A stretch of 29,191 nucleotides of DNA from a virus (IMGVR_UViG_3300009030_000013:1-29191), one strand, 5' to 3'. Shown: positions 6,981 through 29,191, numbered from the stretch's first letter. Made by a program: numbers and translations. The notes: generated from the letters alone by a model not told the origin.

Positions 6981-6986
6981 CTCACA

Positions 6987-7012: not shown

Positions 7013-7036
7013 ACCGTTCGCTCTGGGGGAAACAAC

Positions 7037-7258: not shown

Positions 7259-7275
7259 CCCGAGGAGGAAACGAA

Positions 7276-8098: not shown

Positions 8099-8406
8099 AA
8101 GACAACGTCAAGTTCGTGGTACTCCTCAGCTTCAATGTATCTCTCACTATCTGGCTGGCACTAGGCATGTATGGCACTGAAGTGGGGGTACTCAGTCTCT
8201 CTGCTCTGTCCTTCATGGGTGTGGTGAATGGATGGATCATTGGTCTGTTCGTGGCACACAAGCTCAACATCAAGCTGAATTCTGATGTCATCCATCGAGA
8301 GGGAGATCGAGTCATCGAACAGGTACGTGAGACCCTGCGTGAAGAGAGAGAACGAGATCCACACAGCCTGGACTGGTTGAAACGAGGTGATCACCGTGAG
8401 CAGTAA
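8095..8406 (+). CDS. Small two-TM membrane protein with charged cytoplasmic tail
   Basis: A 103-residue protein with two likely membrane segments, about residues 5-27 (VVLLSFNVSLTIWLALGMY) and 31-58 (LSLSALSFMGVVNGWIIGLF), followed by a basic and acidic helical tail (REGDRVIEQVRETLREERER). ATGA overlap with the upstream gene. Function is unknown. A membrane protein beside a ligand-binding protein could be a superinfection or defence-related component, but it could equally be a simple inner-membrane remodeller. Confidence 0.7.
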   Translation: MKDNVKFVVLLSFNVSLTIWLALGMYGTEVGVLSLSALSFMGVVNGWIIGLFVAHKLNIKLNSDVIHREGDRVIEQVRETLREERERDPHSLDWLKRGDHREQ

Positions 8407-12055: not shown

Positions 12056-12422
12056 CCATGGAATCCCTCGACACCTATTCAGTAGTGTCATTGACTACAT
12101 CGTAGATGGCATGAGACCTGGAGCCTTCGTGGCTGCCATCATTCAAAACAATCTCGTCATGTCATACCTACGTGCGGATGAAGAGAACTGTCACCTGTTT
12201 ACCAACTGGGCACGTTTCCTTCATTGGGAGATGCCCATTGGTAGTTGGGGTAGCGAACCCATGTATCAGTTGTGGTGCAAGTCTGGAGGGATACACGGTC
12301 GAGCAAGAGACAGTGAAACGGAAGGAGTGATGGACATTGCAAGAATCACAAGCACTGCTGGGTCTGACGAGACGGGAGATCATCTACCTGACGAAGGTCC
12401 TTCAGTTGATGACAGCTTTTGA
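11994..12422 (+). CDS. Hypothetical protein
   Basis: A 142-residue protein with AAAGGAGA before the ATG. The N-terminal 100 residues look folded (VEEKELLKLRDHIRTQLTDH, FSSVIDYIVDGMRPGAFVAA, NWARFLHWEMPIGSWGSEPM). The last 28 residues overlap the next gene in another frame. It begins 62 bases inside its upstream neighbour. No family is recognised. Confidence 0.65.
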   Translation: MPVEEKELLKLRDHIRTQLTDHGIPRHLFSSVIDYIVDGMRPGAFVAAIIQNNLVMSYLRADEENCHLFTNWARFLHWEMPIGSWGSEPMYQLWCKSGGIHGRARDSETEGVMDIARITSTAGSDETGDHLPDEGPSVDDSF

Positions 12423-12546
12423 ACACAACATTCCCTCATGGTTGAGGGATGTGATCGTGATTCCAAAGAGACCAGCTCTCTTGATGGCCAAGGTGATACT
12501 GGTGCGGAATCAGTTGGAAGATAAGGAGCGAAAAGAACATGCCTAA
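12337..12546 (+). CDS. Small hypothetical protein with TTG start
   Basis: A 69-residue, mostly helical protein (LLGLTRREIIYLTKVLQLMT, then ALLMAKVILVRNQLEDKE). The TTG at 12337 has GAAGGAG 9 bases upstream. It overlaps the preceding frame by 86 bases and the AAA+ gene by 8. The AAA+ ribosome site (AAGGAG) lies in its 3' end. The tight link to the ATPase suggests co-expression; function is unknown. Confidence 0.55.
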   Translation: MQESQALLGLTRREIIYLTKVLQLMTAFEHNIPSWLRDVIVIPKRPALLMAKVILVRNQLEDKERKEHA

Positions 12547-13927
12547 GAAAGTGTTGGTCTATGGTGTTGGCGAAGTTGTCGACATCGTGCGGACCGCAGA
12601 CAAGACGATCCAGGTACCGAAGGATATGGATCTGGACATCGCCATCGACTGGATGATTCGTCGTCGGGACGAAGAGAACCAGTACATCAATGCCAACGAG
12701 AGGTTCAACTTCTTCCCAAGTGAGGGAGCAGTGGCCTTGGCCAAGGCATTGGAACGGAGGTACGGCTGGAGCGTACAGAAGGTAAAGATGGGAGCCTTTG
12801 GTCCCGAGCCTCCGGAGATGGTGGCCATCGAGGTGGAAGCAGGCAAGACAATCCACGTACCGTGGGGACAAAGCCAGATTCCAGGCATGGGTGATGGGTA
12901 CGTGGAGACAGGCATGTGGAAGCGCAAGGAAATCCCTGCCTTCCAGCTGTCGGGTCACTTCCGCAAGAAGCACGAGGTGGAATTCAAGCAGCTGTGCAAC
13001 GAGGTGAAGCACATCGCCCTGACCGAAAGCATCTATCGGGGTAAGGCGATGAGCGTCAGCTGGGATCTCAGCAAGGCAACGGCCTTGCAGGATCTCTACC
13101 CCACCTTCATGACACCGGATGGGAACAAGGAGCTGATCTTCTCGGACCATGTGAACCACATGATCCAAGCAAATCTCTTCGCTCCCATCCAGATGACCCA
13201 GTCCTTCCGGGACAACGGCATCCCTCTCAAGACAGGGGTGCTGCTCGAAGGGCCGTATGGGTGCGGGAAGACACTCACTGCACACAAGCTGGCTGCTACC
13301 TGCATCGAACATGGCTGGACCTTCATCATGGTCGAGACACCGGACTACCTGCCACAGTTGATTGACTTTGCCAAGCAGTACCAGCCTGCCGTCCTGTTCT
13401 GTGAAGACATCGATCGGAAGATGGGTACCCAACGACGCAACCAGGAGGTGGACAAGATCCTCAACACAGTCGATGGGGTACACACCAAGAACAGCGAGGT
13501 CATGCTGGTACTCACCACCAATCACATCGAAACCATCAGCAAAGCCATGCTGCGACCAGGTCGTATCGATGTGGTGATTCCCGTCGAGCCTCCGGATGCC
13601 GAGGCAGTCGAGAGACTGATCCGGTACTACGGAGGGGGACTCATCGATCCCTTCGAAGATCTGACTGATGTCGGGGATGTATTGAGGGGAGAGATCCCGG
13701 CTACGATCCGTGAAGTCGTTGAGCGCGCGAAGCGCAGTGCCACTCTACTGTCGGGAGGTAAGGGGAAGCTCGTCATCGACGGGGAAGCACTGGTGTACGC
13801 CGCACAGGGGATGCTCAAGCATCTCGCTCTGCTCAAGCCAGAGGACGTAGAGCCTCTCCATCCACTCGTGGTCATGGGTGAGACCCTGGCTGAGGGGCTG
13901 CACTACCACGCCGACAACACGGAGTAG
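12539..13927 (+). CDS. AAA+ ATPase (Cdc48/FtsH-like ATPase module)
   Basis: A 462-residue protein. Residues 1-200 form an N-terminal region of unknown fold. The AAA+ core follows: Walker A GPYGCGKT (238-245), Walker B VLFCEDID (285-292), sensor-1 TTN (326-328) and the R-P-G-R-I-D box (339-344) that carries the trans-acting arginines in classical AAA proteins. The C-terminal helical lid runs to about 430. No protease (HExxH) domain is present. Such ATPases unfold or remodel protein complexes as hexamers. Possible roles include remodelling host or replication complexes or countering a host defence assembly. Start ATG with AAGGAG upstream. It is the largest gene of the plus-strand block. Confidence 0.9.
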   Translation: MPKKVLVYGVGEVVDIVRTADKTIQVPKDMDLDIAIDWMIRRRDEENQYINANERFNFFPSEGAVALAKALERRYGWSVQKVKMGAFGPEPPEMVAIEVEAGKTIHVPWGQSQIPGMGDGYVETGMWKRKEIPAFQLSGHFRKKHEVEFKQLCNEVKHIALTESIYRGKAMSVSWDLSKATALQDLYPTFMTPDGNKELIFSDHVNHMIQANLFAPIQMTQSFRDNGIPLKTGVLLEGPYGCGKTLTAHKLAATCIEHGWTFIMVETPDYLPQLIDFAKQYQPAVLFCEDIDRKMGTQRRNQEVDKILNTVDGVHTKNSEVMLVLTTNHIETISKAMLRPGRIDVVIPVEPPDAEAVERLIRYYGGGLIDPFEDLTDVGDVLRGEIPATIREVVERAKRSATLLSGGKGKLVIDGEALVYAAQGMLKHLALLKPEDVEPLHPLVVMGETLAEGLHYHADNTE

Positions 13928-16187: not shown

Positions 16188-16988
16188 ATGGCACTCAGTG
16201 AAGACGTTCGGATCATCGCTACAGCTCTGAATGAAGTGAAGAAGAAGATCAGTCACATCGACAAGACCGGCAGCAACCCTCACTTCAAGTACGACTTCGT
16301 GGAGGAAGCCCACCTCATCGCTGAAGTGCGCTCTGCATTGATTGAACAGGGGCTGATCATGGCTCCATGTGTGAGTCAGCCTGTTCAGGTGTTCACAGAG
16401 CAGGGCCGAGACAAGAATCAAACCAGTGTGGTGTTCGTCCAGGAGTACAGCTTGACTCATGTGAGTGGGGCTATCTGGCCACACCGCATCGCTGTCGTGG
16501 CCGCAGGCCAGGACTCAGGAGACAAGCATGTCTGGAAAGCCAGTACCGGAGCGAGCAAGTACGCCCTCATGCGACTGCTCCAGCTCTCGACAGGTGATGA
16601 TCCTGAGGCAGATGTAGGAGTTGATCAGCGAAGTGGGAGTGGTGTTCAAACGAAGCCAGCACTGCGAACTGGTCAAGCTGTTTCACGCCCTGGTCCACGT
16701 CAGTCCGTAGAGGCTGTGCTGGAGCGGTACGATGAAGAAGCCAAGGCCGACAGTCAGCTGCTCAAGGACGTGGGTCTCTACCGCAAAGCCTTCGCCAAGG
16801 CAGAGGCGATCCATGGCAAGCCCGCTCTCGATGGCAACGACCGACTCAAATTCAGTGTACTGGACGAAGCCCTCAAACGCATCGGTCTCGACAGCCCTAA
16901 CCAGCTGAAGGTGAAGGACATTCCTCCCCTGCTGGACATCATCGCTGACTTCCAAGACGCTGACTTCCAAAACACTGACTTCACATAG
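16188..16988 (+). CDS. erf: ERF-family single-strand annealing protein
   Basis: A 266-residue recombinase. Residues 15-60 contain VKKKISHIDKTGSNPHFKYD, FVEEAHLIAEVRSALIEQGL, then a beta-rich part and ASKYALMRLLQLSTGDDPE at about 125, matching the ERF domain that anneals complementary single strands. The C-terminal 130 residues are a linker and a helical tail, ending with a short repeat (FQDADFQNTDFT). The ATG at 16188 is preceded by AAGGGG. No exonuclease partner is visible nearby. It likely supports replication-linked recombination or end joining. Confidence 0.9.
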   Translation: MALSEDVRIIATALNEVKKKISHIDKTGSNPHFKYDFVEEAHLIAEVRSALIEQGLIMAPCVSQPVQVFTEQGRDKNQTSVVFVQEYSLTHVSGAIWPHRIAVVAAGQDSGDKHVWKASTGASKYALMRLLQLSTGDDPEADVGVDQRSGSGVQTKPALRTGQAVSRPGPRQSVEAVLERYDEEAKADSQLLKDVGLYRKAFAKAEAIHGKPALDGNDRLKFSVLDEALKRIGLDSPNQLKVKDIPPLLDIIADFQDADFQNTDFT

Positions 16989-17106: not shown

Positions 17107-17442
17107 ATGCAAAAGACTGAGAGAGAGCGCGACGACAAGGCATGTTACGTCGGGGACCACGTCTGGATCCGACGACATCGTAGTGAATCCGACAAAGTGG
17201 GGTCATTCGCCCTCAATCTGGCACCAGAAGATCACCCTGACCCGGCTACAGCAGAGGTGAGTGTCATTCATTTCCAACCCGAGATCTGGGATGCCGTCAA
17301 TGACTGGCTGGATCGCTGGCGTAACGATCCAGAGATCATGGAAGAGGAACGCATGGCACGGGCGGAGGCCAGAGCCGACGCCATGAAGGAAGAGGCAGCC
17401 ACCACATCCGACGTTCCACGTGGAACATTGGATATGTCATGA
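17107..17442 (+). CDS. Acidic hypothetical protein
   Basis: A 111-residue protein starting MQKTERERDDKACYVGDHVW. A beta-rich centre (SFALNLAPEDHPDPATAEVS, VIHFQPEIWDAVNDWLDRW) is followed by a long charged helix (EEERMARAEARADAMKEEAA). AAGGAG precedes the ATG. ATGA overlap with the next gene. No family is recognised. Confidence 0.68.
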   Translation: MQKTERERDDKACYVGDHVWIRRHRSESDKVGSFALNLAPEDHPDPATAEVSVIHFQPEIWDAVNDWLDRWRNDPEIMEEERMARAEARADAMKEEAATTSDVPRGTLDMS

Positions 17443-17627
17443 CACGCATCGACACCAAGATGGCAGGCATTGCCTTGGCCATCGCCATTCACCACAGAGA
17501 GATGACGACACCCGACCGAGCTCTCACTCCAACCCATGGTACTACCTATCGGAGCCTATTGGATGACCTCTTGAAGGAAGCCAAGGAGATGTACGGCGAA
17601 GACCTGGAGAAGGTTCCCAATGGCTAG
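17439..17627 (+). CDS. Small helical hypothetical protein
   Basis: A 62-residue protein (MTRIDTKMAGIALAIAIHHR, then YRSLLDDLLKEAKEMYGEDL), with two amphipathic helices. It is coupled by ATGA to the gene upstream and overlaps the next gene by eight bases. No family is recognised. Confidence 0.62.
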   Translation: MTRIDTKMAGIALAIAIHHREMTTPDRALTPTHGTTYRSLLDDLLKEAKEMYGEDLEKVPNG

Positions 17628-17895
17628 TATCAAATTCGGCAGGTACCACATCGAACATGACGGCGTCTCTTGGATGATGTGCCATGGATGGAAACGACGG
17701 AGAGCTAACAACCGGATGTATCCCATCAAGGCAGGGTGGTATGGCGATCTGCATCAGGTGGCCAAGGCATTGGTGGATGCTGAGATGGTAGAGGCAGCGG
17801 AGCTCCCGCTCATGCTGCGAGAGGTGGTCGAACTGGTCACTTTGAAGCTCAAGGACCTAGAGGCAGAGGTTCTGCTGGAAGATGTCAAACGATGA
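17620..17895 (+). CDS. Small hypothetical protein
   Basis: A 91-residue protein: an N-terminal beta-hairpin-like part (IKFGRYHIEHDGVSWMMCHG), then YPIKAGWYGDLHQVAKALVD and a C-terminal helix (LREVVELVTLKLKDLEAEVL). The layout resembles widespread phage/plasmid small proteins in which a tryptophan-rich strand region precedes a C-terminal coiled helix. ATGA overlap with the next gene. Confidence 0.65.
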   Translation: MASIKFGRYHIEHDGVSWMMCHGWKRRRANNRMYPIKAGWYGDLHQVAKALVDAEMVEAAELPLMLREVVELVTLKLKDLEAEVLLEDVKR

Positions 17896-18191
17896 GGGGT
17901 CACTACATCCTTGAAGGACACACACCTGTCTCTTGTGATCTCATGACATGGGGCAGGTCCCTTACGTTGCATAATCGGATCGTAAAGAAGGAAGCCATCG
18001 GTGACAGCCTAGTATCAACAGTGTTCCTTGGCCTTGATCATGAAGCTGGAAACGAACCACCCCTGCTATTCGAGACACTGGTGTTCGAAGGTCCACTGGC
18101 TGATGAGATGGATCGATACTCCACCTGGGAGCAAGCAGAGCAGGGTCATGCAGCTATGGTGGAGAGAGTCAAGAATCAGGTCGAGCGGTAG
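17892..18191 (+). CDS. Widespread phage hypothetical protein (YILEGHTPV / STVFLGLDH type)
   Basis: A 99-residue protein with HYILEGHTPVSCDLMTWGRS at the N-terminus, then GDSLVSTVFLGLDHEAG (about 37-53), PLLFETLVFEGPL (about 57-69) and DRYSTWEQAEQGHAAMVERV (about 74-93). I recognise this motif order from many unrelated phages, where it is annotated only as hypothetical. It is the last gene of the plus-strand block, and its stop touches the start of the terminator-like stem. Confidence 0.8.
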   Translation: MRGHYILEGHTPVSCDLMTWGRSLTLHNRIVKKEAIGDSLVSTVFLGLDHEAGNEPPLLFETLVFEGPLADEMDRYSTWEQAEQGHAAMVERVKNQVER

Positions 18192-18282
18192 AGTCCTGCT
18201 GTCATCGGTGACACCCCATGACAGTAGTGACTCCCGTTAGACAGAGGGGGAGGTGGAATTGCCATTTCGCCACCTCTCCCTC
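18191..18282. terminator. Back-to-back stem-loops between convergent gene blocks
   Basis: GAGTC+CTGTCAT (18191-18205) pairs with ATGACAG+GACTC (18218-18233), a 12-bp helix with an internal loop. GAGGGGGAGGTGG (18244-18256) pairs with CCACCTCTCCCTC (18270-18282) over 13 positions with one G-U; this second stem lies inside the 3' end of the minus-strand gene. The position between converging blocks argues for bidirectional termination, although neither stem has a U-tract. Confidence 0.6.
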
Positions 18283-18542
18283 ACTGACTTGACCAGCTTC
18301 AACGTCCTGTTGGAGCAAGTACGACACATCGCTGGGCTAGCGAGGTGTTCAACCCCGTATCGAAACACGTAGTCACTGTAGGTGTGGAGAGCGGCTCCAC
18401 AGATACAGCTAAACTGAGCAGATCTGTACCCAGTTGAACTACCAAAATGAAAATGTGAAGTTGAGCCCGGTTCGCTTGGTTCCCACTGCTGAACCTTTTC
18501 CAAAAAGTACGCCAAGGACTGGAACCAGTCGATCGGGGACAT
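18237..18542 (-). CDS. Small Cys-cluster protein, last gene of the late operon
   Basis: A 101-residue protein starting MSPIDWFQSLAYFLEKVQQW. It carries CICG (about 45-48) and CRTC (about 71-74), compatible with a zinc site, followed by a basic helix (LKLVKSVRERWRNG). The ATG lies seven bases after the previous stop. In-frame codons further upstream overlap the membrane-protein gene and are not used. No family is recognised. Its place after the lysis genes is unusual for a zinc protein. Confidence 0.6.
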   Translation of the reverse strand: MSPIDWFQSLAYFLEKVQQWEPSEPGSTSHFHFGSSTGYRSAQFSCICGAALHTYSDYVFRYGVEHLASPAMCRTCSNRTLKLVKSVRERWRNGNSTSPSV

Positions 18543-18549
18543 GCCTTTG

Positions 18550-18840
18550 TCAGAGGAGGAAGACACCCAGCACCACACCCGTCACACCACCGATGGCATA
18601 GAAGGACCAATCGAGCCGAGCATCCCACCAGTCATGGCTTGGATACTGCATCCACTCCCGGTAGAAGAGGAACGCAAGGGACATGAGAGACAGGACGATG
18701 GCTACGAGCATCGCCAACACACCCAGGTAGCGGTACGTCACGAATGGCAGGATGAATGAAGCTCCAGCCCACAGGAAGTGGAGAGGCTGGTCCCTCACGT
18801 TGCGAAGAATGTTCTTCTTGAGGGTACGGTGGGGACTCAT
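18550..18840 (-). CDS. Small membrane protein downstream of the spanins
   Basis: A 96-residue protein with three hydrophobic stretches: LHFLWAGASFILPFV (about 22-36), LGVLAMLVAIVLSLMSLAFL (about 40-60) and SFYAIGGVTGVVLGVFLL at the end. The basic N-terminus (SPHRTLKKNILRN) suggests N-in topology. Its ATG overlaps the stop of the upstream mini-gene (TGATG). It could be a second holin or antiholin, or an inner-membrane accessory of lysis; it is not otherwise recognised. Confidence 0.68.
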   Translation of the reverse strand: MSPHRTLKKNILRNVRDQPLHFLWAGASFILPFVTYRYLGVLAMLVAIVLSLMSLAFLFYREWMQYPSHDWWDARLDWSFYAIGGVTGVVLGVFLL

Positions 18841-18920
18841 CACGTTACCGGCCTGAGCCTACTGCGGGGCTGTGAATCCAGCAGCGTCAGCGACTTGATG
18901 ACCTTTTCGAGGTGACTCAT
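18840..18920 (-). CDS. 26-residue coupled mini-gene
   Basis: A 26-codon frame starting MSHLEKVIKSLTLLDS and ending in a basic RSRLRPVT. The ATG overlaps the o-spanin stop as ATGA, and its stop overlaps the following ATG as TGATG, so it fills the gap exactly and would keep ribosomes moving from the spanin to the membrane-protein gene. The predicted product is an amphipathic basic helix. It may be a true peptide or only a coupling device. Confidence 0.5.
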   Translation of the reverse strand: MSHLEKVIKSLTLLDSQPRSRLRPVT

Positions 18921-19165
18921 GGCTTCTTACCTGCCAGCTGGCAGTTGGCTCGGTACTCGGTGTTGGCCCACTTGATCCAGATCAGGGTCTCCTGGTAGCC
19001 ACCATCCTTGAGCATCCGGTAGCTGTGGCCCATGCGAGTCAAGCTCTTGCGGAAGTCTTGGCCCTCCGTGCAGAAGGGCTCAAGGATCGGGCGTGTCACG
19101 CAGCCAATCAGCCACAGACTGAGCATGAGCAGCGAGCTCACGTGAAGCATTCTTCTTTCGCTCAA
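18917..19165 (-). CDS. Outer-membrane lipoprotein spanin (o-spanin, Rz1-like)
   Basis: An 82-residue protein with a lipoprotein signal: basic n-region (MSERRMLH), hydrophobic core (SSLLMLSLW) and lipobox L-I-G-C with Cys22 as the lipidation site. The mature part has two further cysteines and a helical region (RKSLTRMGHSYRMLKDGGYQ). It starts with TTG, with GGAGG six bases upstream; an ATG at 19150 is an alternative. It overlaps the upstream inner-membrane gene out of frame, the classic Rz/Rz1 layout. With the i-spanin it fuses inner and outer membranes in the last lysis step. Unlike many Rz1 proteins it is not proline-rich. Confidence 0.75.
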   Translation of the reverse strand: MSERRMLHVSSLLMLSLWLIGCVTRPILEPFCTEGQDFRKSLTRMGHSYRMLKDGGYQETLIWIKWANTEYRANCQLAGKKP

Positions 19166-19292
19166 TGGCCACCTCCATGTCTTTCAGCTGTGCCTTGGCA
19201 GCCCCTGCCTGCTTGGACTGGCGCACCAGCAGGCCGATCAATAGCACCACCACGGTAAGGGCCACCCCTCCTCCAATGAGGACAGGGTCCAT
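19080..19292 (-). CDS. Inner-membrane spanin (i-spanin, Rz-like), short form
   Basis: A 70-residue protein: MDPVLIGGGVALTVVVLLIG forms one N-terminal membrane segment, followed by a coiled-coil-like periplasmic helix (AAKAQLKDMEVAIERKKNAS) and the end ADWLRDTPDP. Its ATG overlaps the stop of the holin-like gene (TGATG). The 3' half holds the start of the o-spanin in another frame. It is shorter than typical Rz proteins of 110 residues or more, so the periplasmic reach is limited; another candidate partner with a longer coiled coil is the 19904-20242 protein. Confidence 0.7.
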   Translation of the reverse strand: MDPVLIGGGVALTVVVLLIGLLVRQSKQAGAAKAQLKDMEVAIERKKNASRELAAHAQSVADWLRDTPDP

Positions 19293-19477
19293 CAGACGTT
19301 CTTGGCCTTGCCTGTGTTCATGCCCACGAAGTTCACCACGTCCATCACGCCCTGCATGATCTTGTCGTCCACCTTGTTGGGTGTCCGTGTGGCCAGGATG
19401 GCGAAGGCACCCACTACCTGCAGCAAGAGTGCGACGTTCTCCCACACCCACTTGGCTACGAGTTCAATCAGCTCCAT
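19292..19477 (-). CDS. Holin-like small membrane protein
   Basis: A 61-residue protein with one hydrophobic segment (WENVALLLQVVGAFAILAT, about 12-30) and a C-terminal part NKVDDKIMQGVMDVVNFVGMN ending TGKAKNV. This (D)NK(VDD)KI...NFxGxNxGKAKN ending is frequent in small phage proteins next to endolysins. GGGAGA lies upstream of the ATG, which is two bases after the endolysin stop. A holin or antiholin that times endolysin release is likely but unproven. Confidence 0.65.
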   Translation of the reverse strand: MELIELVAKWVWENVALLLQVVGAFAILATRTPNKVDDKIMQGVMDVVNFVGMNTGKAKNV

Positions 19478-19478
19478 G

Positions 19479-19901
19479 TCATTCTCCCCATCGTGCGAAC
19501 CGTCGGTCCCCCTTGGTCCCTCTGGATTCGATCGGTCGGATCTTAGCGTAGGCCCCTCGCTTCCAGGCGTCAGCCAGGGTACGGGTGGTTGAGCCTCCTC
19601 CCTCAGCTCCGATGTAGAGATGAGGGGGGTCCAGCACCATGCCGACGTGCGTGGCCCTGCCCCCACTGTTGACCCAGAAGACAAGGTCGGTTGGGATCAG
19701 CTGGCCCTGTTTGATCTCGGAGTAGCGAGCCATCAGACCATTGGCGGTGGTGTCCTGGCCCCGTGGAAAGGCACCCACGCTCTGCAGGAGCTCGATCATC
19801 ATGCCACTGCAGTCAAAGCCCTGTGGTGTGTCTCCACCCCAGATGTAGGGTGTACCCCATAGCTTCCACGCCATCTTCAGGACGACGCTTCGGTCGGTCA
19901 T
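19479..19901 (-). CDS. Endolysin, NlpC/P60-type cysteine peptidase
   Basis: A 140-residue enzyme that should cleave peptidoglycan peptide stems. The motifs are GTPYIWGGDTPQGFDCSG with nucleophile Cys31, the middle block PTDLVFW (70-76), and ATHVGMVLD with general-base His85. The third polar residue, usually just after the VIHA-type strand, is not obvious (YIGAEGG). No signal peptide is present, so holin-dependent release is expected. Neighbours are a holin-like gene downstream and a membrane/coiled-coil gene upstream. The domain fills the whole protein; there is no separate cell-wall-binding domain. Confidence 0.88.
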   Translation of the reverse strand: MTDRSVVLKMAWKLWGTPYIWGGDTPQGFDCSGMMIELLQSVGAFPRGQDTTANGLMARYSEIKQGQLIPTDLVFWVNSGGRATHVGMVLDPPHLYIGAEGGGSTTRTLADAWKRGAYAKIRPIESRGTKGDRRFARWGE

Positions 19902-19903: not shown

Positions 19904-20242
19904 CTAGGGGCTGAGCTCCGAGATAGGAGTTGCTTCCTCGATCTCAGGAGCAATGGGCTCACGATGCGGATCCTGTTGCTTTACCAGGAAGTCGATGCTG
20001 GTGGCAATCTTCCCCTGATTGATCAGGAGCTGGGTGATGGTGGCGTTGGCTTCCTTCTCATGGCTTTCAATCCGTTCAGCATTGGCTTTCACGTCTTCAT
20101 CGGAAGCACGGCTGGTGGCAAACTCCCAAGTGAAGCCCAAGATGATACCCGTAGCGATGATCGCTACTCCCTGCTGGTACCTCTTGTTGTTGTTCGTCAC
20201 TACTTTATCAATCACCCTCGAAGGTTGTAGACGGCGGGTCAT
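19904..20242 (-). CDS. Single-TM protein with periplasmic coiled coil, upstream of endolysin
   Basis: A 112-residue protein with a membrane segment at about 23-42 (QQGVAIIATGIILGFTWEFA), a coiled-coil helix (ASDEDVKANAERIESHEKEA, then ITQLLINQGKIATSIDFLVK) and an acidic Pro-rich end. It overlaps the 3' end of the Cys-rich gene by 35 bases. A GTG at 20215 that abuts a weak GAGG is an alternative start. It may be a holin, an antiholin or a spanin-like protein. Confidence 0.65.
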   Translation of the reverse strand: MTRRLQPSRVIDKVVTNNNKRYQQGVAIIATGIILGFTWEFATSRASDEDVKANAERIESHEKEANATITQLLINQGKIATSIDFLVKQQDPHREPIAPEIEEATPISELSP

Positions 20243-21692
20243 GAATAGGAGTGCAAGTCATCTCTGAGTCTTCAATCTTTTGAAGAGTATTGCCCGGCTG
20301 AAGTGTGCCGTAGCCCAAATATCCAAGCATCCCCATCATTGACAGGTAATGGTTGTCTATAAGTGCGCCATTCGTAGGGTCTTCATACTTCCGCCCTGCC
20401 TGAAACAGTATGGTTTGAGTCTGCTTATAAACCTGATCATTGTGTATGGTCGAGCAACTGCTATCGCAGAAACTATCTGGACTACCTGTAGTTTGTGGAA
20501 GACCTACCTGCGGGCAAACTGGAGCATCAAAAGAATCGGCGCAACTGGTCGCGCAATTAGAATCGCAGAAACCATCCGAACTACCTGAAGTTTGTGTAAC
20601 ACCTGTGGCGGGGCAAGCTGGACTATCATTGACGTCAGTGCAACTGGTCGCGCAATTAGCATCACAGAACTCATCTGGACTGCCGGAGGTTTGTGCAATA
20701 CCTATCAGAGGGCAAGCCGGATCATCAAACTTATCTTGGCAAACGAAGGCCTCACGCCAATTCATCTTTTCTGAGAATGACGTGTAGTTGTTGGGACCAG
20801 GAGAGACGTTACCTACACCAGAAGCGTAGGAACACGGAAGAGATACACAACCTCTTTCAGGAGTATCTGGATGACCTAGAGCTGGCATGTAGTGAAGAAG
20901 GTGAAGCAATTTACCAGTCTGGGCAGAGATCGCATTGTCTATTCCGAAGTTGGTTGTGTCAGAAATGGCAACGGTAGTAGCATTTACAACAGCCTTGATC
21001 TCAACCGTACCTCTATCGGATCCAAAGCCAGAGTCCAGGTAGAGGACATCCCCCGGATTAGCAAGCCGAAATATGTCAGCGTGCCCTCCGACTGAGACAG
21101 TGTCGCAAGCATCATCGGCTGCTCCACATGCTGCATCAACTGCTCCATCTACCGTGGTGACTGTTACAACACCCTCATCTTGCTTGAGTATGTCGTACTC
21201 ACCTTCGTAAATGACCATCTCCCAGTTTTCCGCTGCAACCGGCCCTTGAACAGACCTCCTCAGGTTCATACTAAATGTGCAAAGGAAGTCTTGCCGTTGT
21301 CCCGTAGTTGCTGGCAACCAAGCAGCCGCCCAACAACGCTGGCGCTTTGTGCTAGTTGCAAAGCCTTGCTTGTGGGCACAGGACGTTATATTCAGGTCCC
21401 AATCGTTACCACCTTGTATTACAAGCCTATCGTCAGTCCCGCCATCGGTCTCTCCAAAGGTGATGCCAAAGATGTTGAACATACACCAGGGACTTTCGGC
21501 ACAATTTTCACCGTCTGGCGCACCCATGGTGTAGGGTACTCTGATATAGAGCTTGTTTTCGGAGCCCATCTGGCGCATCGTGAAGCCTTCAGGTGTACTA
21601 CCACTGCTACCCCCTGGGCCACGCTTGATCACTACACCCGTGAGAAACGACAGGGACAACAGCAGAAGAATCGCTATGTAGATTCGTCTCAT
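20208..21692 (-). CDS. Exported Cys-rich protein with three 33-residue repeats
   Basis: A 494-residue protein with a signal peptide (MRRIYIAILLLLSLSFLTG), then VIKRGPGG, a Gly/Ser linker and a beta-rich body. Residues about 322-420 form three tandem 33-residue repeats with the motif ACP-x-x-G-x-x-QTSGSPD-x-FCD-x-NCATSC. The protein has 22 cysteines, all after the signal peptide. An upstream in-frame ATG at 21713 would add seven residues ahead of the basic MRR start and is less likely. Being exported and Cys-rich, it should form disulphides in the periplasm, which is unusual for a phage protein next to the tail fibre. Possible roles are receptor binding, host-surface display or superinfection exclusion. 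Confidence 0.75.
   Translation of the reverse strand: MRRIYIAILLLLSLSFLTGVVIKRGPGGSSGSTPEGFTMRQMGSENKLYIRVPYTMGAPDGENCAESPWCMFNIFGITFGETDGGTDDRLVIQGGNDWDLNITSCAHKQGFATSTKRQRCWAAAWLPATTGQRQDFLCTFSMNLRRSVQGPVAAENWEMVIYEGEYDILKQDEGVVTVTTVDGAVDAACGAADDACDTVSVGGHADIFRLANPGDVLYLDSGFGSDRGTVEIKAVVNATTVAISDTTNFGIDNAISAQTGKLLHLLHYMPALGHPDTPERGCVSLPCSYASGVGNVSPGPNNYTSFSEKMNWREAFVCQDKFDDPACPLIGIAQTSGSPDEFCDANCATSCTDVNDSPACPATGVTQTSGSSDGFCDSNCATSCADSFDAPVCPQVGLPQTTGSPDSFCDSSCSTIHNDQVYKQTQTILFQAGRKYEDPTNGALIDNHYLSMMGMLGYLGYGTLQPGNTLQKIEDSEMTCTPIHDPPSTTFEGD
20433..20729 (-). repeat. Three 99-bp coding tandem repeats (Cys-rich)
   Basis: Three consecutive 33-codon units, with the P-x-C motif recurring exactly every 33 residues (325-327, 358-360, 391-393). 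The first two units share QTSG and NCATSC; the third is more diverged (QTTG, SCSTIH). The periodicity suggests disulphide-stabilised modules built by duplication. Confidence 0.8.
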
Positions 21693-21700
21693 GGTAATAC

Positions 21701-22126
21701 CTACTCGTTGCATCGCAGCAACAGACGGGGTGTCTCGCCCGCCGGATCGACAGTACCAAAGACACAGATCCAGCTGGCCGCTGCACCGTAGATCTCAGAG
21801 GCTCCATTGGCACCTGTCAGTGTGATGTTTTCAAGGATGTTGCAGGCATCGGCACTGCAGACATTGGTGACACAGGTACGGACCTTCATGTCATTCAGGA
21901 GTACCCCCGTGCCCGTGTCATCAGCGTTGTAGATGACATCGAAGTTCTCACAGTCTCTTACAGAGAGAATGTCCGAGGTGAGATCATTCGTAGCAAAATC
22001 CGTACACAGATCTCTACCTGCCGAGATCGTGCCCTTGGCAGCTCCACTGACACAGTCCTTCCAGGCTGCAGCACCAGCTGGTATAGACCACAGCAGGACC
22101 ACGAAGAGAATGATGACACGAAGCAT
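21701..22126 (-). CDS. Exported Cys-rich protein
   Basis: A 141-residue protein with a signal peptide (MLRVIILFVVLLWSIPAGAAA, likely cleavage after A-x-A near residue 21) and 8 cysteines in the mature part, including CVTNVCSADAC at about 85-95. The rest looks beta-rich (ILENITLTGANGASEIYGAA, then WICVFGTVD). It ends CNE just before the next exported protein. No family is recognised. It is probably co-translated with its exported neighbours. Confidence 0.75.
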   Translation of the reverse strand: MLRVIILFVVLLWSIPAGAAAWKDCVSGAAKGTISAGRDLCTDFATNDLTSDILSVRDCENFDVIYNADDTGTGVLLNDMKVRTCVTNVCSADACNILENITLTGANGASEIYGAAASWICVFGTVDPAGETPRLLLRCNE

Positions 22127-22139
22127 GATGTCCTTCCTT

Positions 22140-22985
22140 TCAGTTTATCGTTCTGCGGGGACCACAGTGTGTGATGCCAGAGCAAAGCGCGCACTGGTTA
22201 CAGTTGTCGTAGCCGTCGTTCTTCCAGCCTGTGATGCCGTTGTCTCTGTAGCCATTCGCCGGAGAACAGCGGCACACGAGGCAAAGCTCGCAAGCGGTCA
22301 GCTCTTCGTCTGCGACATACAGCTGTGAAATGAAACCATTGTATGTAAGAACTCCAGGAAGGAAGGTTCCGATTCTGAAGGTTGTCATGGCAGCAATGTC
22401 TGTGTTGGCGTTGTTCTCATCGGTGTTGTCGTAGAGGGTGTTGGCGTTGTTTGGATTGTCAGTGTAAAGACGAATGGGTGTATCGGCTACCCCACTCCAC
22501 GACACAGCAATGAAGTTCTGACCAAATATATCAGAAAGCGCGTCGTTCTTTCCTTTACTGATGCCACCTCCACCCTGTGCCCATGCTTCTCCAGTGGTCT
22601 TTCGAAGGATCGTGGTTGAAGAGTCGATCGTGATGAACCCAGTTCTCTGGGCATCAAACGGAAAGTGCCAGACAGCAACAGTGAGTGCGGATGCCTGCAG
22701 GCCACCATTGAGATGCATGTAGTTGTCGTCGCCGTCGAAGAGGCAAGACCTCTGGCTAGATTCAAAGTGGGTGGGGAAGTGGGCTTGATTACAGATTGCA
22801 CCGTTCACCAGGGTCCAGTCGTCTCGACCGCCCTGGGCTTCGGACTGGCATCGGTCGATGAGGTTCTCGGCCCCGGTGATTCCGTGCAATGCGTATTGCT
22901 GGCAGCGGTCTTCGGTCGTCATGTCGACACCGGCACCCGTGGCACCGAGAGACAAGGCCGCTGCTAGGAAGAGTACGAAGCGCAT
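22140..22985 (-). CDS. Exported LamG/jelly-roll-like Cys-rich protein
   Basis: A 281-residue protein with a signal peptide (MRFVLFLAAALSLGATGAG). The central region (about 90-235) reads as a concanavalin/LamG-type jelly roll: LTVAVWHFPFDAQRTGFITI, FIAVSWSGVADTPIRLYTDN and TFRIGTFLPGVLTYNGFISQLY. The C-terminus holds a dense cysteine knot-like cluster (CELCLVCRC, then CNQCALC). The mature part has 12 cysteines. LamG-like folds often bind glycans, so attachment to host or virion surface sugars is a plausible inference. The start lies one base after the previous stop. Confidence 0.75.
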   Translation of the reverse strand: MRFVLFLAAALSLGATGAGVDMTTEDRCQQYALHGITGAENLIDRCQSEAQGGRDDWTLVNGAICNQAHFPTHFESSQRSCLFDGDDNYMHLNGGLQASALTVAVWHFPFDAQRTGFITIDSSTTILRKTTGEAWAQGGGGISKGKNDALSDIFGQNFIAVSWSGVADTPIRLYTDNPNNANTLYDNTDENNANTDIAAMTTFRIGTFLPGVLTYNGFISQLYVADEELTACELCLVCRCSPANGYRDNGITGWKNDGYDNCNQCALCSGITHCGPRRTIN

Positions 22986-22986
22986 T

Positions 22987-23391
22987 TCATCCGCAGTACA
23001 GGAACAGGCTGCAGTCTGTGACTGCGCCGTCTACGTCGGTGATACTCAGGTCTATGTCAGACCCAGCAGCAACATCAGGAGAAGCGATAGTCGTATCGTC
23101 TAGGCCACCCGAGGTAGGACATGCTTGTACGGCTTCGATGTCAAATCCGTCATCCTTCCAGACAAAGTCAATATCGACTCCGCCCCGGCACTGACAGACC
23201 ATACGTGAGATGGTGACATCCTTGTCAAAGTGAGCGACGGTCTCGAAGAGTTCGACAGCAGGGTTCTCGATATACAGCTTGGTGCATGGGACTCCTGCGG
23301 CACCACCACCTCCTCCGCCAGGACCCCGCTTGATCACGGCACCTGTGAGCAGCAACATGGCGCAGAACGCCAGGATGATGCGTATCTTCAT
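22987..23391 (-). CDS. Exported Cys-rich protein sharing the VIKRGPGG module
   Basis: A 134-residue protein with a signal peptide (MKIRIILAFCAMLLLTGA), then VIKRGPGGGGGGAAG and a small beta-rich domain. Six cysteines follow the signal (PC, VCQC, AC, DC, YC), the last ones at the C-terminus (CSLFLYCG). Its N-terminal module is similar to that of the 494-residue protein. It starts two bases after the tail-fibre stop, which suggests co-expression with the fibre. Function unknown. Confidence 0.73.
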   Translation of the reverse strand: MKIRIILAFCAMLLLTGAVIKRGPGGGGGGAAGVPCTKLYIENPAVELFETVAHFDKDVTISRMVCQCRGGVDIDFVWKDDGFDIEAVQACPTSGGLDDTTIASPDVAAGSDIDLSITDVDGAVTDCSLFLYCG

Positions 23392-23393: not shown

Positions 23394-25553
23394 TCAGTCG
23401 TCTCTACCACGACGGTCAATCCATCCAAGAACTGTCATTCTCAGATTTACGTCATCATCGGTGGCTTGTCGGAAAGCAAACTGTTTCAGCTCGTCAATGA
23501 GAATTGAGGCTTCCCACGCATGGGGGTTGCCGGCAGCTCCTTGGAGGGACGATAGACCTGGCGCGGCGGTGTAGGTAGGAACGAGGGGAAATTCATAGAC
23601 AGAAGTGACGATCATGCCCAATGTTTGACTGCTCTGATTATTCACCGCCAGTCGGAACTGGACATTGAGGATCACATCGCTGGGTGTATGGTCGAGTATG
23701 TGAAGGCTGATTTGAGTGAAGTCTCCACTGATGTCCACGTCGAATCGAGGAGTGGCAAAAATAATCTTGTCACCGATCTGGGTGTATTGTCTGAAGTTGG
23801 GAGTAGTCGAGCTAACAAAACTCCAGAGGCGTCTGAACCAGACAGTCCCGGTGCACGTAGCTTGTACTGCCGTGTCTGCAACCAGATTCGCCGCATCTAC
23901 ATCAGTGTCAAACCCATAGTCGTTCCCCGAGGTGGAACCCTTGAGTGCAAAGAGATGCCAGGTGTCTACGGCTGCCGCGAAGCCTGCCGCAGTTGGGACT
24001 CCAGCGTTTCCATTTCCAGCTATCCACCCATTAGGATTAGGGTCTACGAAGGTCTTGGACCAGAGGGCTGGTTTTTTGAAGTTTGCCTTGTTCTGGTTGG
24101 TAGCAGTGCCAACACGACATTCACCTGGTTCAATCTGGATTTCTACTGAGCCGCTGACCCAAAGAGTCTTGAGTCCTTGCAACAAACCCCTGTTGGACAA
24201 AGCCCCGTCGGCCCATACAGGGGCATCGGCTCCCATCACCAACACCTGGTCTTCGGTTCCCTTTGGCAATGCGATGCCATCACCGGAGGCATTACCAATG
24301 AGAAGGTCACCTTCTGTTGTGATGGGAGGCGCAACCCAAGAGGCTGTATTGGCACCCGCGATCAAGACATCCTTGTCCGTACCCAATGGAAGTTTGATGG
24401 GGAGGCCACCTGAGTCAGCAACGATCAGGTCGCCTTCGTCGGTGACGGGTGAAGCAACTGGTGTTTCCCATGACAATCCGCTGGCACCTGCGGTCAGGAT
24501 GTTTCCCTCTGCACCAATGCCAAGTCTGCTCGGATCATCATTTACGTCACCAACGATGATGTCGCCCTCTGTCGTGATGGATGTTCCTTCGACTCCAACC
24601 CAAAGAGGCGTGTCGGCACCTGCAGCCAGGACGAGTCCTTCGGCTCCCATTGCCAATCTGGTTGGATCACCATTTACGTCACCAACGATGATGTCGCCCT
24701 CTGTCGTGATGGGAGGTGTCTCCCATGAGGCAGTGCTGGCACCAGCGGTGAGGACATCACCATCGGTACCCAGGGCCAACTGGCTGCCATCACCACCGGA
24801 GTCCCCAACGAGAAGGTCGCCTTCTGCTGCGATAGGAGGTGCGACCCACGACACTTGGCTTGCACCGGAAGTTAGGACGTCACCATCGGTTCCTAGTCCC
24901 AGTCTTTTTGCGTCGTTGCTGCTGTCTCCAATGATGACGTCACCCTTTGTTGTGATGACATCTTCCTGAGATCCGATGATCGCTCTCTCTGCTGCTGCGT
25001 CTGCTGCTTCAACGATCTGTTGACCAATAGCGGTGAAATTGAAAGCCACATCTCCAGGTTCAGCAACATCAGGCGCACCTGTTGTGGCATTGAACTGGAT
25101 GATCTTGCCCTTACGATCGATGACTGAGGGCAGCTCCATGTCTACCCCCTCATCTTCTATGGGGGTACGGAGAGCTGACTTGTTGAGCTCCTCCAGGTCC
25201 AGGACAGCCATGGCCAGCTTGTCTACGATGCGCTCATGGACCTTGGCAGGGAACTTGTCGTTGCTGGTGTAGCTGGTGCCCTGGGTCTTGGTGGTCTTTC
25301 GCCGCCAGTACCACGTGGACCCAGCAGGTATGGCAATTTTGACTGTAAGGGTGCCATCAGAAGGAGCCGTACCCGAGAGAACTACTGTGTAGTTCGTGGG
25401 GGAAACCAGGGCAGTTTCAACCCCATCGGAATCCTTGATCTCGATGATCTCGATGTCAGCAGCGTCGTCAGCCAGATACCCGAGGGTAGTGTTGACGTCG
25501 ATCGCCTGAGGCCCTGCCAGCTTCTTCCGAAGAGTTAGATCGGTGAAGCTCAT
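23394..25553 (-). CDS. Tail fibre protein with six tandem repeats
   Basis: A 719-residue protein. Residues 1-130 are a podophage-type fibre N-terminal adaptor: a beta-rich part, then WYWRRKTTKTQGTSYTSNDK, FPAKVHERIVDKLAMAVLDL, the common R-xx-x-TQ-x-x-Y-x-x-x-x-x-FPA..hE...Dkl pattern. Residues 203-451 contain six repeats of about 41-44 residues (EGDLLVGD, LGTDGDVL, AGAS..SW). Residues 455-719 are the C-terminal domain, with IEPGECRVG, WIAGNGNAGVP and WHLFALKGSTSGNDYGF, typical of receptor-binding fibre ends. The ATG overlaps the upstream stop (ATGA). It should bind the host surface; specificity unknown. Confidence 0.85.
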   Translation of the reverse strand: MSFTDLTLRKKLAGPQAIDVNTTLGYLADDAADIEIIEIKDSDGVETALVSPTNYTVVLSGTAPSDGTLTVKIAIPAGSTWYWRRKTTKTQGTSYTSNDKFPAKVHERIVDKLAMAVLDLEELNKSALRTPIEDEGVDMELPSVIDRKGKIIQFNATTGAPDVAEPGDVAFNFTAIGQQIVEAADAAAERAIIGSQEDVITTKGDVIIGDSSNDAKRLGLGTDGDVLTSGASQVSWVAPPIAAEGDLLVGDSGGDGSQLALGTDGDVLTAGASTASWETPPITTEGDIIVGDVNGDPTRLAMGAEGLVLAAGADTPLWVGVEGTSITTEGDIIVGDVNDDPSRLGIGAEGNILTAGASGLSWETPVASPVTDEGDLIVADSGGLPIKLPLGTDKDVLIAGANTASWVAPPITTEGDLLIGNASGDGIALPKGTEDQVLVMGADAPVWADGALSNRGLLQGLKTLWVSGSVEIQIEPGECRVGTATNQNKANFKKPALWSKTFVDPNPNGWIAGNGNAGVPTAAGFAAAVDTWHLFALKGSTSGNDYGFDTDVDAANLVADTAVQATCTGTVWFRRLWSFVSSTTPNFRQYTQIGDKIIFATPRFDVDISGDFTQISLHILDHTPSDVILNVQFRLAVNNQSSQTLGMIVTSVYEFPLVPTYTAAPGLSSLQGAAGNPHAWEASILIDELKQFAFRQATDDDVNLRMTVLGWIDRRGRDD
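24201..24947 (-). repeat. Six coding tandem repeats in the tail fibre shaft
   Basis: Six units of about 125-130 bases encode (E/K)GD-(L/I/V)-hydrophobic-(G/A)(D/N)...L.(G)T(D)..DVL..GA...W..PP.TT. Units 2-4 are most alike, and an exact DNA match of about 40 bases recurs near 24540-24580 and 24672-24710. Repeats of this kind build an elongated trimeric shaft and are prone to copy-number change. Confidence 0.85.
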
Positions 25554-28500
25554 TTGGGAGGTGTTACTCCAAGTGCTTGTAGACTAGCTTGATGTCGTAG
25601 GCCACGCTCTGCCGCGCCCTCAACGCCGTTCTGTACGGCATCGAATAGAAAATCTGTGTAGAAGAGGTTTTGGAACGGCCACAACTTGCGCCATGCACGG
25701 ATCTGCTGGTTGGTGACATCTCCGATGCCCTCACCGAAGGCCATGCCCCCCAGCCCACCCACTGCTCGACCCAACTGCTTCATGGTGTCGAAGCTGGGAC
25801 CCAGTGTGTGGCCCGCGAGGTTGGTCAAGAAGCCATCGCTCTTCCAGCCATGGAAGGTGTCCGGTCCCAGGAAGCCACGGGCTGTAATGGCTCCTCCTGT
25901 ACTGGCAGAGAGCATCCCGTCCATCTCCCCCACTGAGCCCCATACGTCCGCCCTGACTATGCCCTCCTGGAGGATCCGATCGATGTCTGTAGGGATCTCT
26001 CTCTTGTTGGAGAACTCCTTCAACATGAAGACCATGGAACCCAGGGCGATGCCAATCCCGATGCCATTGAGGATGGCGTAGTCCCCTGCCTTCAGGCCCT
26101 GCATCGCAGGTATCCCTAGTTTCTGGGTCCAGGCGATGCCGAACCTCCTGAACTGGAAGATCACCTTGCCTGCGTTGGAGTGCATCAAGAGCGGTGCGTC
26201 AGCTACCCCTGGGGTCACCACGGCACGGTCTACGTCCTCCACGATCAGATTTCTGACGATGCGCCTGAGCTCAGGAGCCCTGGGACCCTCCCAGCTGCCA
26301 ACACCCAGGCTCCTGACCCCATCCGTATCACTCCCGTATTTCCGGAACATCTCCAGGATCTCCAGCATGTGAGCGGGAGAGACGTGGGCACGCTGCATCC
26401 TGGCCATCATGTCAGGGGAGGCCCTGCCATTCTCCAGTGCCAGGGCCACATCGATCAGACGACGTGTGGTCTGGCGTGCAGCGATGTGCTTGGCGTAGTT
26501 GGTCCAGGGACCCAGCAGGCTGAGTACAGCCATTTGCTTTGAAGCACGGTGGGTTAGAGCTTCGAATGCAGAATACTGCATGGCGTAGTCACCGACATCA
26601 GCGATGGCCATGGCCCGCATCTGCATGGTGTCGTTGAAGTCGATCATCAGATCCTGGAGATCCTGTCTGGCCATCTTCTTGAGAGTGGGGTTGGTCCTGA
26701 AGCGCATCTCGTTGGCGAACTCACGCATGGTGTTGCGAGCGCCGTTCATGATGACCATCCCGCCAATGTCGCCCAGGGCCACGATCCCGAAGCCACCCCC
26801 AATACGCATGTAGTTCCAGTCTCGCAGGGCACGGCCAGCCCTCTGTAGCCTCCCAGCGCCACTGTGTGGGCTGGCAGGAAGGGCGTAGGTGCCTCTCAGG
26901 ATCTGACGCATGGACTCCAGATCCTTGAGATCGCTCCCCTTCTGGTTCTTGAGCTCCTTGAGCTTCTTCTCCACCGCACCAGGAATCTTCCTCAGCTTCT
27001 TGTTGGCTGCGGCCTCATCGAAGAGCCGGTCGTACTCCAGCTCGATCATCTTGAAGCCCTCGGTCATTTCGATGTCAGTGAACTTCTTGCGGATCTCGAT
27101 GTCAGGGATACGGGTATGCATGTAGGCGTTCATGATCTCAGCGATGTTGTTCCGGAGGTACGGCTTCAGGGTCTCGTGGTCTACCTCCAGCCGTAGGGGT
27201 TTTTGTCCCTCTCCCTGCCGGATGTCCAAGAGACCCAGCTTCCGCCTACGGGCACTGCGACCGAACTGCCCTGTATCGGTAAAGACACGCTTCTCGATCC
27301 CCTGCACCATCTCCTGGAAGCCCTCAGGTGTACGCAGATAGGACTCGTCCATCACACCATTGACCCACTTGGTGACCAAGCGAGCGATACGACTCTCGAT
27401 GTTGGTAGGAATGGTGACTCCATCATCACCCCGGATGGCTTCCACCTTTCGCATCAGGTCTTCCCTGATGACCCGCTCGAACTTCTCACGGTCCCTACCG
27501 ATGATCACCGTGTCGTACAGCCTCAGCACATACTCGAACGGATCCACCCCCTGGATGTCGAGACCCATCCGTTCCAGAGCCAGACCTGCAGGGAGGAGGA
27601 TCTGCTCCCGCATCATCCGTGCAGACTTCTCAACTCCCTGGATAGCGGATTCAGGTACACCTACAGCCCCTCCCTTGTTTCGCAGGGCATGGGTCACGGC
27701 TTCGTAGAACTCTGGTCGGGTGAGTACAACGGATCGCTGGTCTGCTACCTGCGAGGAGACACGAGCCTTGGCGACATCGAGCTTGGTGGTCCTGCCTGTG
27801 ATCTCATCTCCAATCCCCATGACGTAGCGGTTCCACTGGTCCTCGATCTCACCCAGCACGAACTCGTTCTTCCTATGCCAGATCTTGATGCCGAGCTCAA
27901 TGGACTCGTCCGTAATGTCGCCTGTGTAGTTGGCGTCCATCTTGAAGTCCGTGATCGCCAGGATGTGGAACATGCGCTTGGCAGCTTGGCTGGGACTGTT
28001 CAGGAGGATCCGACCCTGCGGGTTGGACAACACCAGACTAAAACGGTGGAAGCCGTAGGACTCAGCCACCATGTTGGCGATGGGAGTGCTGATCTGTTCG
28101 ATGGGCTTCTTGCCCACACTCTCAGCGACAGGGCTCATGATGGCTGCAGTCCTGACGGGTCCAATCCCAGGGATGTCTACACCTGCGTTCAGTGCATCTC
28201 GGAGCTCTTGAACAGATCGGATAGGAGGTGTCATGTTCTCCATTACCAGGATGAGCCCTTTCCCAATCCCTGGAATCTCAAGCAGGGTCCGTGGATCACG
28301 AGTCGTACCCTCTGCCCTGGCTGCTGCATCCATGTCACGTAGATCCTGGACACGCTGAGCCATCTCACGCTCTGCTGCATCAGCGATTTCATCGAGTGTC
28401 TGCTCCGCTCCGATGTCATCACCCATCCGACCTTCCAGTCTGAAGAGCTTATTGCGGAAGCTACCGTCCTGGGTTTCGAAGACCCTCCCTACGAGTCCGT

Positions 28501-29191
28501 CGTAGTTGACCACTTGATCTTCGATCGAAACAGGCAGATTGGCTGCATCCCACTCATCAATGAGCGTCTGCATGATGCCAGACCGTACAGCCTCACGTTC
28601 CCCTACGGGTGCGTTCGTGATCTGATTGGCAAATCCCTCTGCCCTGGCTTCAGAGATAGCATCTACGATCACATCGTTGGAAGGTCTGATGACAGGAGTC
28701 ACGTCAACGTCAGAACGTGTTTGCCCAAAGTGATGCTGGATCTGGCTACGCATGTAGATCACATCAGGGTGCAGCGACTGTCGGAATTTCAGGATGAGGA
28801 AGCGAGCTCTGGCTCTCTCCTGGAGTGTTGCCGGAGGACTGAGGACCCCTTGAGCAGCAATCATCTCTTCCATCTCAAGGAGCATGGACTCTCTCACCCT
28901 GAGATTGCTGATGATCTCCTCTGTCATGGCCTGTTCTACTTCTTCAGCCAGATCACCCCCTATAGCTCTAAGAGCTTGACGTAGATCCAACATGACTCCA
29001 GCGACGTAGTCTGGAACGCTCTGCATCGTTGTGAACGTGGTCAGGTCATCAGCAAGAGCGTTTTGAGCTTCCAATGCTGCAAGGGCTTGCTCTTCTTGAG
29101 CATCGATGAGAAATTGCTCAGCGGTAGGGACACCTGATCCATCAGCGGCAGCAGCACCCTCGTCATCCACGACAGGGTGGTCTGGAAGGAG
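25550..29191 (-). CDS. Giant internal virion / DNA-ejection-type protein (5' end cut by window edge)
   Basis: At least 1213 residues, open to the right edge; a GTG at 29170 is possible but the true start may lie outside. Residues are mostly helical. Two I-P-G-I-G motifs (LLEIPGIGKG and VDIPGIGPVRTAAIM, about 296-346 counted from the GTG) look like helix-hairpin-helix DNA-binding turns. The C-terminal 400 residues include FQFRRFGIAWTQKLG, a hydrophobic GIGIGIALGSMVFML and PFQNLFYTDFLFDAV, a layout I recognise from podophage internal core proteins (T7 gp16 position). These proteins enter the host envelope and help move DNA inward. It lies directly before the tail fibre, as expected. Confidence 0.75.
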   Translation of the reverse strand, partial: LLPDHPVVDDEGAAAADGSGVPTAEQFLIDAQEEQALAALEAQNALADDLTTFTTMQSVPDYVAGVMLDLRQALRAIGGDLAEEVEQAMTEEIISNLRVRESMLLEMEEMIAAQGVLSPPATLQERARARFLILKFRQSLHPDVIYMRSQIQHHFGQTRSDVDVTPVIRPSNDVIVDAISEARAEGFANQITNAPVGEREAVRSGIMQTLIDEWDAANLPVSIEDQVVNYDGLVGRVFETQDGSFRNKLFRLEGRMGDDIGAEQTLDEIADAAEREMAQRVQDLRDMDAAARAEGTTRDPRTLLEIPGIGKGLILVMENMTPPIRSVQELRDALNAGVDIPGIGPVRTAAIMSPVAESVGKKPIEQISTPIANMVAESYGFHRFSLVLSNPQGRILLNSPSQAAKRMFHILAITDFKMDANYTGDITDESIELGIKIWHRKNEFVLGEIEDQWNRYVMGIGDEITGRTTKLDVAKARVSSQVADQRSVVLTRPEFYEAVTHALRNKGGAVGVPESAIQGVEKSARMMREQILLPAGLALERMGLDIQGVDPFEYVLRLYDTVIIGRDREKFERVIREDLMRKVEAIRGDDGVTIPTNIESRIARLVTKWVNGVMDESYLRTPEGFQEMVQGIEKRVFTDTGQFGRSARRRKLGLLDIRQGEGQKPLRLEVDHETLKPYLRNNIAEIMNAYMHTRIPDIEIRKKFTDIEMTEGFKMIELEYDRLFDEAAANKKLRKIPGAVEKKLKELKNQKGSDLKDLESMRQILRGTYALPASPHSGAGRLQRAGRALRDWNYMRIGGGFGIVALGDIGGMVIMNGARNTMREFANEMRFRTNPTLKKMARQDLQDLMIDFNDTMQMRAMAIADVGDYAMQYSAFEALTHRASKQMAVLSLLGPWTNYAKHIAARQTTRRLIDVALALENGRASPDMMARMQRAHVSPAHMLEILEMFRKYGSDTDGVRSLGVGSWEGPRAPELRRIVRNLIVEDVDRAVVTPGVADAPLLMHSNAGKVIFQFRRFGIAWTQKLGIPAMQGLKAGDYAILNGIGIGIALGSMVFMLKEFSNKREIPTDIDRILQEGIVRADVWGSVGEMDGMLSASTGGAITARGFLGPDTFHGWKSDGFLTNLAGHTLGPSFDTMKQLGRAVGGLGGMAFGEGIGDVTNQQIRAWRKLWPFQNLFYTDFLFDAVQNGVEGAAERGLRHQASLQALGVTPPK

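Follow-up and report, generated by a model that had tools for sequence, protein, structure and literature searches.

Do tailed phages make binding proteins in the oxidising periplasm, and if so, for what use? The question is raised by four adjacent genes, here termed P1 to P4, in a virus record of 29,191 nt (IMGVR_UViG_3300009030_000013:1-29191, hereafter the window), which is a podovirus fragment. Phages usually export few proteins; a published pair of lytic phages lists a signal peptide for 1 gene among 82 and for none among 86 (PMC4615864). Four neighbouring cysteine-rich proteins with signal-like N-termini thus stand out.

Gene organization of the window

The left end of the window holds the portal and terminase genes, and its right end those for the internal virion protein and the tail fibre, all on the minus strand. 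Small early genes run on the plus strand between these two groups, and encode an AAA ATPase, an ERF annealing protein, and SLOG and DUF4326 proteins. No integrase-sized gene was seen in this early region. If the genome is circular, the head and tail-tube genes alone are absent from the window, the early region being present. As a separate observation, the strand opposite the AAA ATPase gene (12539-13927, plus strand) has an open frame of 381 aa at 12380-13525. The features of the late region are as follows.

25550..29170, minus strand: internal virion protein with a T7 gp16-like C-terminal half, the upstream neighbour (phrog_342, E 6e-47; phrog_16310, E 5e-79)
23394..25553, minus strand: tail fibre with a T7-type N-terminus, repeats of ~40 aa and 2 Cys (phrog_1640, E 2e-10)
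22987..23391, minus strand: P4, 134 aa, signal-like leader with LTGAVIKRGPGG, 6 Cys after the leader (from sequence)
23315..23337, minus strand: VIKRGPGG leader motif of P4
22140..22985, minus strand: P3, 281 aa, signal-like leader, weak LamG-like domain at about residues 81-235, 12 Cys
21701..22126, minus strand: P2, 141 aa, signal-like leader, predicted jelly-roll-like β-sandwich, 8 Cys
20208..21692, minus strand: P1, 494 aa, signal-like leader with LTGVVIKRGPGG, three 33-aa Cys repeats, 22 Cys
21610..21632, minus strand: VIKRGPGG leader motif of P1
20409..20714, minus strand: three-Cys-repeat region of P1, CPxxGxxQTSGSxDxFCDxNCATSC (approximate bounds)
19904..20199, minus strand: membrane-anchored coiled protein, first of the lysis block (from sequence)
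19479..19901, minus strand: NlpC/P60 peptidase, probable endolysin (PF00877, E 1.4e-12)
19292..19486, minus strand: small holin-like protein (hydrophobic segment; phrog_9685, an unnamed family, E 1e-4)
19080..19292, minus strand: inner spanin-like protein (phrog_214, Rz-like spanin, E 0.006)
18917..19150, minus strand: outer spanin-like lipoprotein with a LIGC lipobox, overlapping the inner spanin gene (from sequence; phrog_1275 only at E 0.12)

In the 3' direction from the tail fibre, P4, P3, P2 and P1 are followed by the membrane coil protein, the NlpC/P60 peptidase, the holin-like protein and the two spanin-like genes. For P1, the ATG at 21692, which opens the protein MRRIYIAILLLL..., was preferred over a start at 21713. 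P4 begins 2 nt past the tail fibre, and all intergenic gaps from the fibre through the NlpC gene measure 1-13 nt, so that the block reads as part of a single late operon. Neither an own promoter nor a terminator above chance was found within the four genes: promoter-like sites numbered 1, against 4.3 expected by chance, in a scan that a non-sigma70 promoter may escape. The tight gaps and the lack of promoter-like sites above chance point to late expression alongside the virion and lysis genes. The spanin-like genes suggest a host with an outer membrane and a periplasm, and the nearest non-phage genes of the NlpC/P60 peptidase, in Zixiibacteriota, Gemmatimonadales and Chitinivibrionales metagenome-assembled genomes (MAGs), may give a weak hint at the identity of the host.

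This neighbourhood allows the proposal that P1-P4 assist lysis: beside the endolysin and spanins, they would bind the peptidoglycan or outer membrane from its periplasmic side, or weaken it. The block adjoins, and is coupled to, the genes of the transmembrane protein and the NlpC/P60 peptidase, an adjacency that is also seen in the companion phage L058 described below. However, the lysis set already looks complete and no enzyme motif was found in P1-P4, and we regard a lysis role as very unlikely.

Leaders and cysteines of P1-P4

All four minus-strand genes at 20208-23391 begin with hydrophobic, signal-like segments, and the number of cysteines after that segment is even in each protein (6 in P4, 12 in P3, 8 in P2 and 22 in P1), both as the initial annotation had described. 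A seventh cysteine of P4, C10, sits inside the signal segment and is excluded from this count. Cysteines make up 4-6% of the residues of P1-P4, compared to 0-0.4% in the structural neighbours: the flanking tail fibre holds 2 in 719 aa, again as annotated, the internal virion protein none in 1206 aa, and the portal and terminase 2 each. Even counts are weak evidence for the four window proteins (p 0.06), and become more suggestive once the three slot proteins of L058 are added (7/7, p 0.008).

The combination of leader and cysteines is rare. Of 1308 ORFs in related phages, all 80 aa or longer, 59 are signal-like, and 2 of these 59 are also Cys-rich, against 4 of the 38 ORFs in the window; the binomial probability of four such ORFs by chance is 3.9e-7, adjacency being left out of the calculation. 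A further signal-like, Cys-rich ORF of the window (6982-7425) runs against the direction of the early genes, and was taken as spurious.

Each N-terminus carries one or two basic residues ahead of a core whose Kyte-Doolittle value averages 2.7-3.5 across 10 residues; possible -3/-1 sites are occupied by small residues (LTGA/V, TGA/GVD, AGA/AA and LTG/VV, the slash marking the possible cut). By rule-based assessment these are putative Sec type I signals, clear in P2 and P3 and weaker in P1 and P4, where KR follows the core. None of the four leaders, as read from the sequence, has the lipobox with Cys at +1 that an Llp-like superinfection-exclusion lipoprotein would carry.

The leaders of P1 and P4 share the sequence LTG[AV]VIKRGPGG directly past the hydrophobic core, with 42 of 60 nt identical over the shared stretch, and the remainders of the two proteins are unrelated. 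VIKRGPGG is absent from P2, P3 and the L058 slot proteins, and a DNA scan for it returned five loci, all of them unrelated, and no further related occurrence. P1 also contains three 33-aa repeats with up to 4 Cys each, in which 11 of 12 cysteines are kept at 45-64% amino-acid identity; the best pair, repeats 1 and 2, has a dN of 0.17 and a dS of 0.87, an estimate from 27 codons.

From the signal-like N-termini, the rarity of their combination with cysteines, the cysteine retention in P1, the Gram-negative-type lysis cassette and the independent phage L058, we infer Sec export, leader cleavage and oxidation of P1-P4, of which export and oxidation are well supported as predictions. The initial annotation is supported in part, for this predicted export and oxidation; the roles that it lists, a host-surface coat, a secreted receptor blocker or virion parts added during exit, are candidates. 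A different reading takes the N-terminal segments as membrane anchors or tail-associated hydrophobic peptides, with cysteines that bind metal or remain reduced. Two basic residues straight after the core are uncommon in cleaved Sec signals, and the IKR at this position in P1 and P4 might mark a membrane anchor rather than a cleaved signal; likewise, the clustered CxxC motifs at the C-terminus of P3 could bind metal. Against this, the leaders of P2, P3 and the L058 proteins look like ordinary signals, with small residues where cleavage would occur, and the counts are even in all seven proteins, which makes anchors with reduced or metal-bound cysteines decidedly improbable.

Recurrence of the slot in a companion phage

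The internal virion protein, used as a profile query, led to a companion phage, L058 (IMGVR_UViG_3300037422_000102), a distant relative in which the internal virion protein and tail fibre genes are followed by three slot proteins, a membrane coil protein, an NlpC/P60 peptidase and a holin. Both ends of the tail fibre show homology between the two phages (E 2e-12 and 5e-7), and the two NlpC/P60 proteins share 54% identity. Two of the L058 slot proteins are exported-looking, one of 150 aa with 6 Cys and the other of 591 aa with 20 Cys; the third has an N-terminal hydrophobic segment followed by 2 Cys, and a dockerin match (E 0.0011) under the cut-off. At 16323-16793, L058 encodes an exported-looking slot protein with an fn3-like part and a half dockerin-like C-terminus. 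Elsewhere in its lysis block, past the holin, the gene at 18071-18315 has a lipoprotein-like start and then CLLHDAAYE, a phospholipase A2-like motif.

The slots of L058 and the window are alike in order, coupling, leaders, and even and high cysteine numbers, but differ in sequence: no similarity beyond chance was found between the L058 slot proteins and P1-P4. The best pair, P2 and the 150-aa protein, reaches only a BLAST E of 0.45, with 28% identity and three aligned cysteines in a forced alignment. Thus, the slot and the protein type recur in L058, whereas the sequences do not, and it is mainly for this reason that we think the arrangement functional. A later viral scan recovered L058 again and nothing further.

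Most relatives have no exported proteins in the slot, and neither the terminase relatives (25 records) nor L247, a Myxococcota-phylum relative of the internal virion protein, have the slot. Phages L136 and L137 carry several fibre-like genes there, with shared N-terminal motifs. In L059, a 595-aa exported enzyme-like protein with four Cys lies directly past the tail fibre (17215-19002) and has no relatives in phage records, and a phage region of a Chitinivibrionales MAG, L146, encodes past its fibre gene a 677-aa protein with a signal-like start and 14 Cys (6332-8365). Judging from these fibre-like genes and exported proteins, the slot seems to be a common site for accessory genes that act at surfaces. 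Signal-peptide-like genes also occur near the terminase of Pelagibacter phage Baldr (L055; 658-1293 and 1475-2851), with 4 Cys each, one of them with NGNFETGN.

With such accessory genes in view, P1-P4 might be morons, in the manner of lambda Lom and Bor, which use a convenient late slot to modify the surface of the infected host, or to shield it from predators or other phages. The GC3 of the block genes (0.46-0.62, against ~0.70 in portal and terminase) suggests acquisition, and the exported L059 protein and the dockerin-like and fn3-like member in L058 fit this proposal. On the other side, the block has no promoter or terminator of its own above chance and is tightly coupled to the late operon, no integrase was seen in the early region, which makes lysogenic conversion less likely, and the gain for a cell near lysis is doubtful. 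We consider a moron role unlikely.

Sequence families and predicted folds

Profile searches against Pfam, PHROGs and NCBIfam assigned no family to P1-P4, and no virion structural family in Pfam or named PHROG matched them. No relative of P1-P4 emerged by profile or sequence: none was found for P1, P3 and P4 in viral contigs, none for P1-P4 in phage records, and none for P3 in 379 genomes from the phylum to which a Myxococcales MAG belongs. A weak P1 match in the same 379 genomes reads through stops and was taken as chance. PDB sequence searches with P1, P3 and the 591-aa L058 protein gave chance matches only.

The LamG-like member of the initial annotation is P3, in which Laminin_G_3 covers 150 of 151 profile positions. 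However, its score of 14.7 bits (E 0.034) falls below the curated cut-off of 27.6, and the assignment of P3 as a LamG or concanavalin A-like lectin is accordingly weakly supported; AlphaFold2 prediction of P3 alone yielded a pLDDT of 31. When P2 was folded with the 150-aa L058 protein as second row, a β-sandwich was predicted at low confidence (pLDDT 64), with weak matches to phage fibres and to domains that bind carbohydrate or collagen. The jelly-roll matches of P2 (picornavirus coats, clostridial haemagglutinin and collagen-binding domains, Z ~8) were set aside as reflecting a common fold, not function. Altogether, the predicted folds of P2 and P3 fit, at low confidence, domains of a binding type.

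Such domain types resemble fibre tips, and P1-P4 could accordingly be virion parts, namely accessory receptor-binding proteins that would be exported, oxidised in the periplasm and joined to the tail during or after lysis, with VIKRGPGG of P1 and P4 as a docking peptide. The slot lies directly past the tail fibre, that of L136 and L137 holds fibre-like genes with shared N-terminal motifs, and the leader motif is common to P1 and P4 while the rest is not. Nevertheless, P1-P4 have no homology to any virion protein, and a cyanophage virion β-domain, rebuilt from records, gave no match to P4 above shuffled controls. P2, P3 and the L058 proteins lack VIKRGPGG. Tailed phages assemble in the cytoplasm, and we know of none with periplasm-made fibres. 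A virion role is quite unlikely; its more specific form, in which a particle built in the cytoplasm would be joined at lysis, via the leader-linked VIKRGPGG peptide, to disulphide-bonded adhesins matured in the periplasm, strikes us as highly doubtful.

A proposed role at the host envelope

We tentatively favour, as a possibility that falls somewhat short of probable, that P1-P4 are binding proteins made late, exported via Sec and stabilised by disulphides, which work at the host envelope or come free when the cell lyses. The slot of L058, the gap and promoter data, the rarity of the protein type, the retention of cysteines in P1 with dN below dS, the fold matches and the spanin-like genes all argue for the binding role that we infer, whereas the lack of a homologue, the KR after the core in P1 and P4 and the low-confidence folds argue against it.

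The block would then be an accessory slot of the late operon for small to medium β-rich binding proteins used outside the cytoplasm. P1-P4 would be synthesised together with the tail fibre and lysis proteins, cross the inner membrane via Sec and lose their leaders, and form disulphides in the periplasm. The mature proteins may attach to the host envelope, through sugars or other molecules on its surface, and lysis would free them along with the cell contents. Their likeliest use, at the level of a guess, would be to mask or occupy the receptor on dying cells and debris, sparing progeny or competing phages from loss.

Comparison with known systems showed both likenesses and differences. T5 Llp and phi80 Cor, which block receptors or exclude other phages, are single small lipoproteins or membrane proteins; they are phage-encoded, exported and act at the outer membrane, as proposed for P1-P4, but the latter are four, larger, non-lipoprotein, late and Cys-rich, and no sequence relation was found. 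Lambda is temperate, with lysogenic conversion genes near its tail fibre or lysis genes, among whose products Lom is a β-barrel and Bor a lipoprotein. Like P1-P4, as predicted, these are exported products of the late tail-to-lysis region; in contrast, no integrase is seen in the window, and P1-P4 are soluble-looking and Cys-rich. The accessory fibre clusters of T7-like podoviruses (L136 and L137) occupy the same slot past the main fibre with several genes and partly shared N-termini, but these have no signal peptides and few cysteines. Filamentous phage pIII is a virion protein with a signal peptide and disulphides, both predicted also for P1-P4; filamentous phages, however, are assembled in the membrane, whereas P1-P4 belong to a tailed podovirus.

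An exported-type, Cys-rich gene block in this position is unusual for a tailed phage, and a search of the open-access literature returned no description of such a gene cluster, a weak indication of novelty. In the one main phage and the one clear companion on which this study is based, the same arrangement is refilled by unrelated sequences, which points to a selected function at the cell envelope, either as the cell lyses or afterwards.
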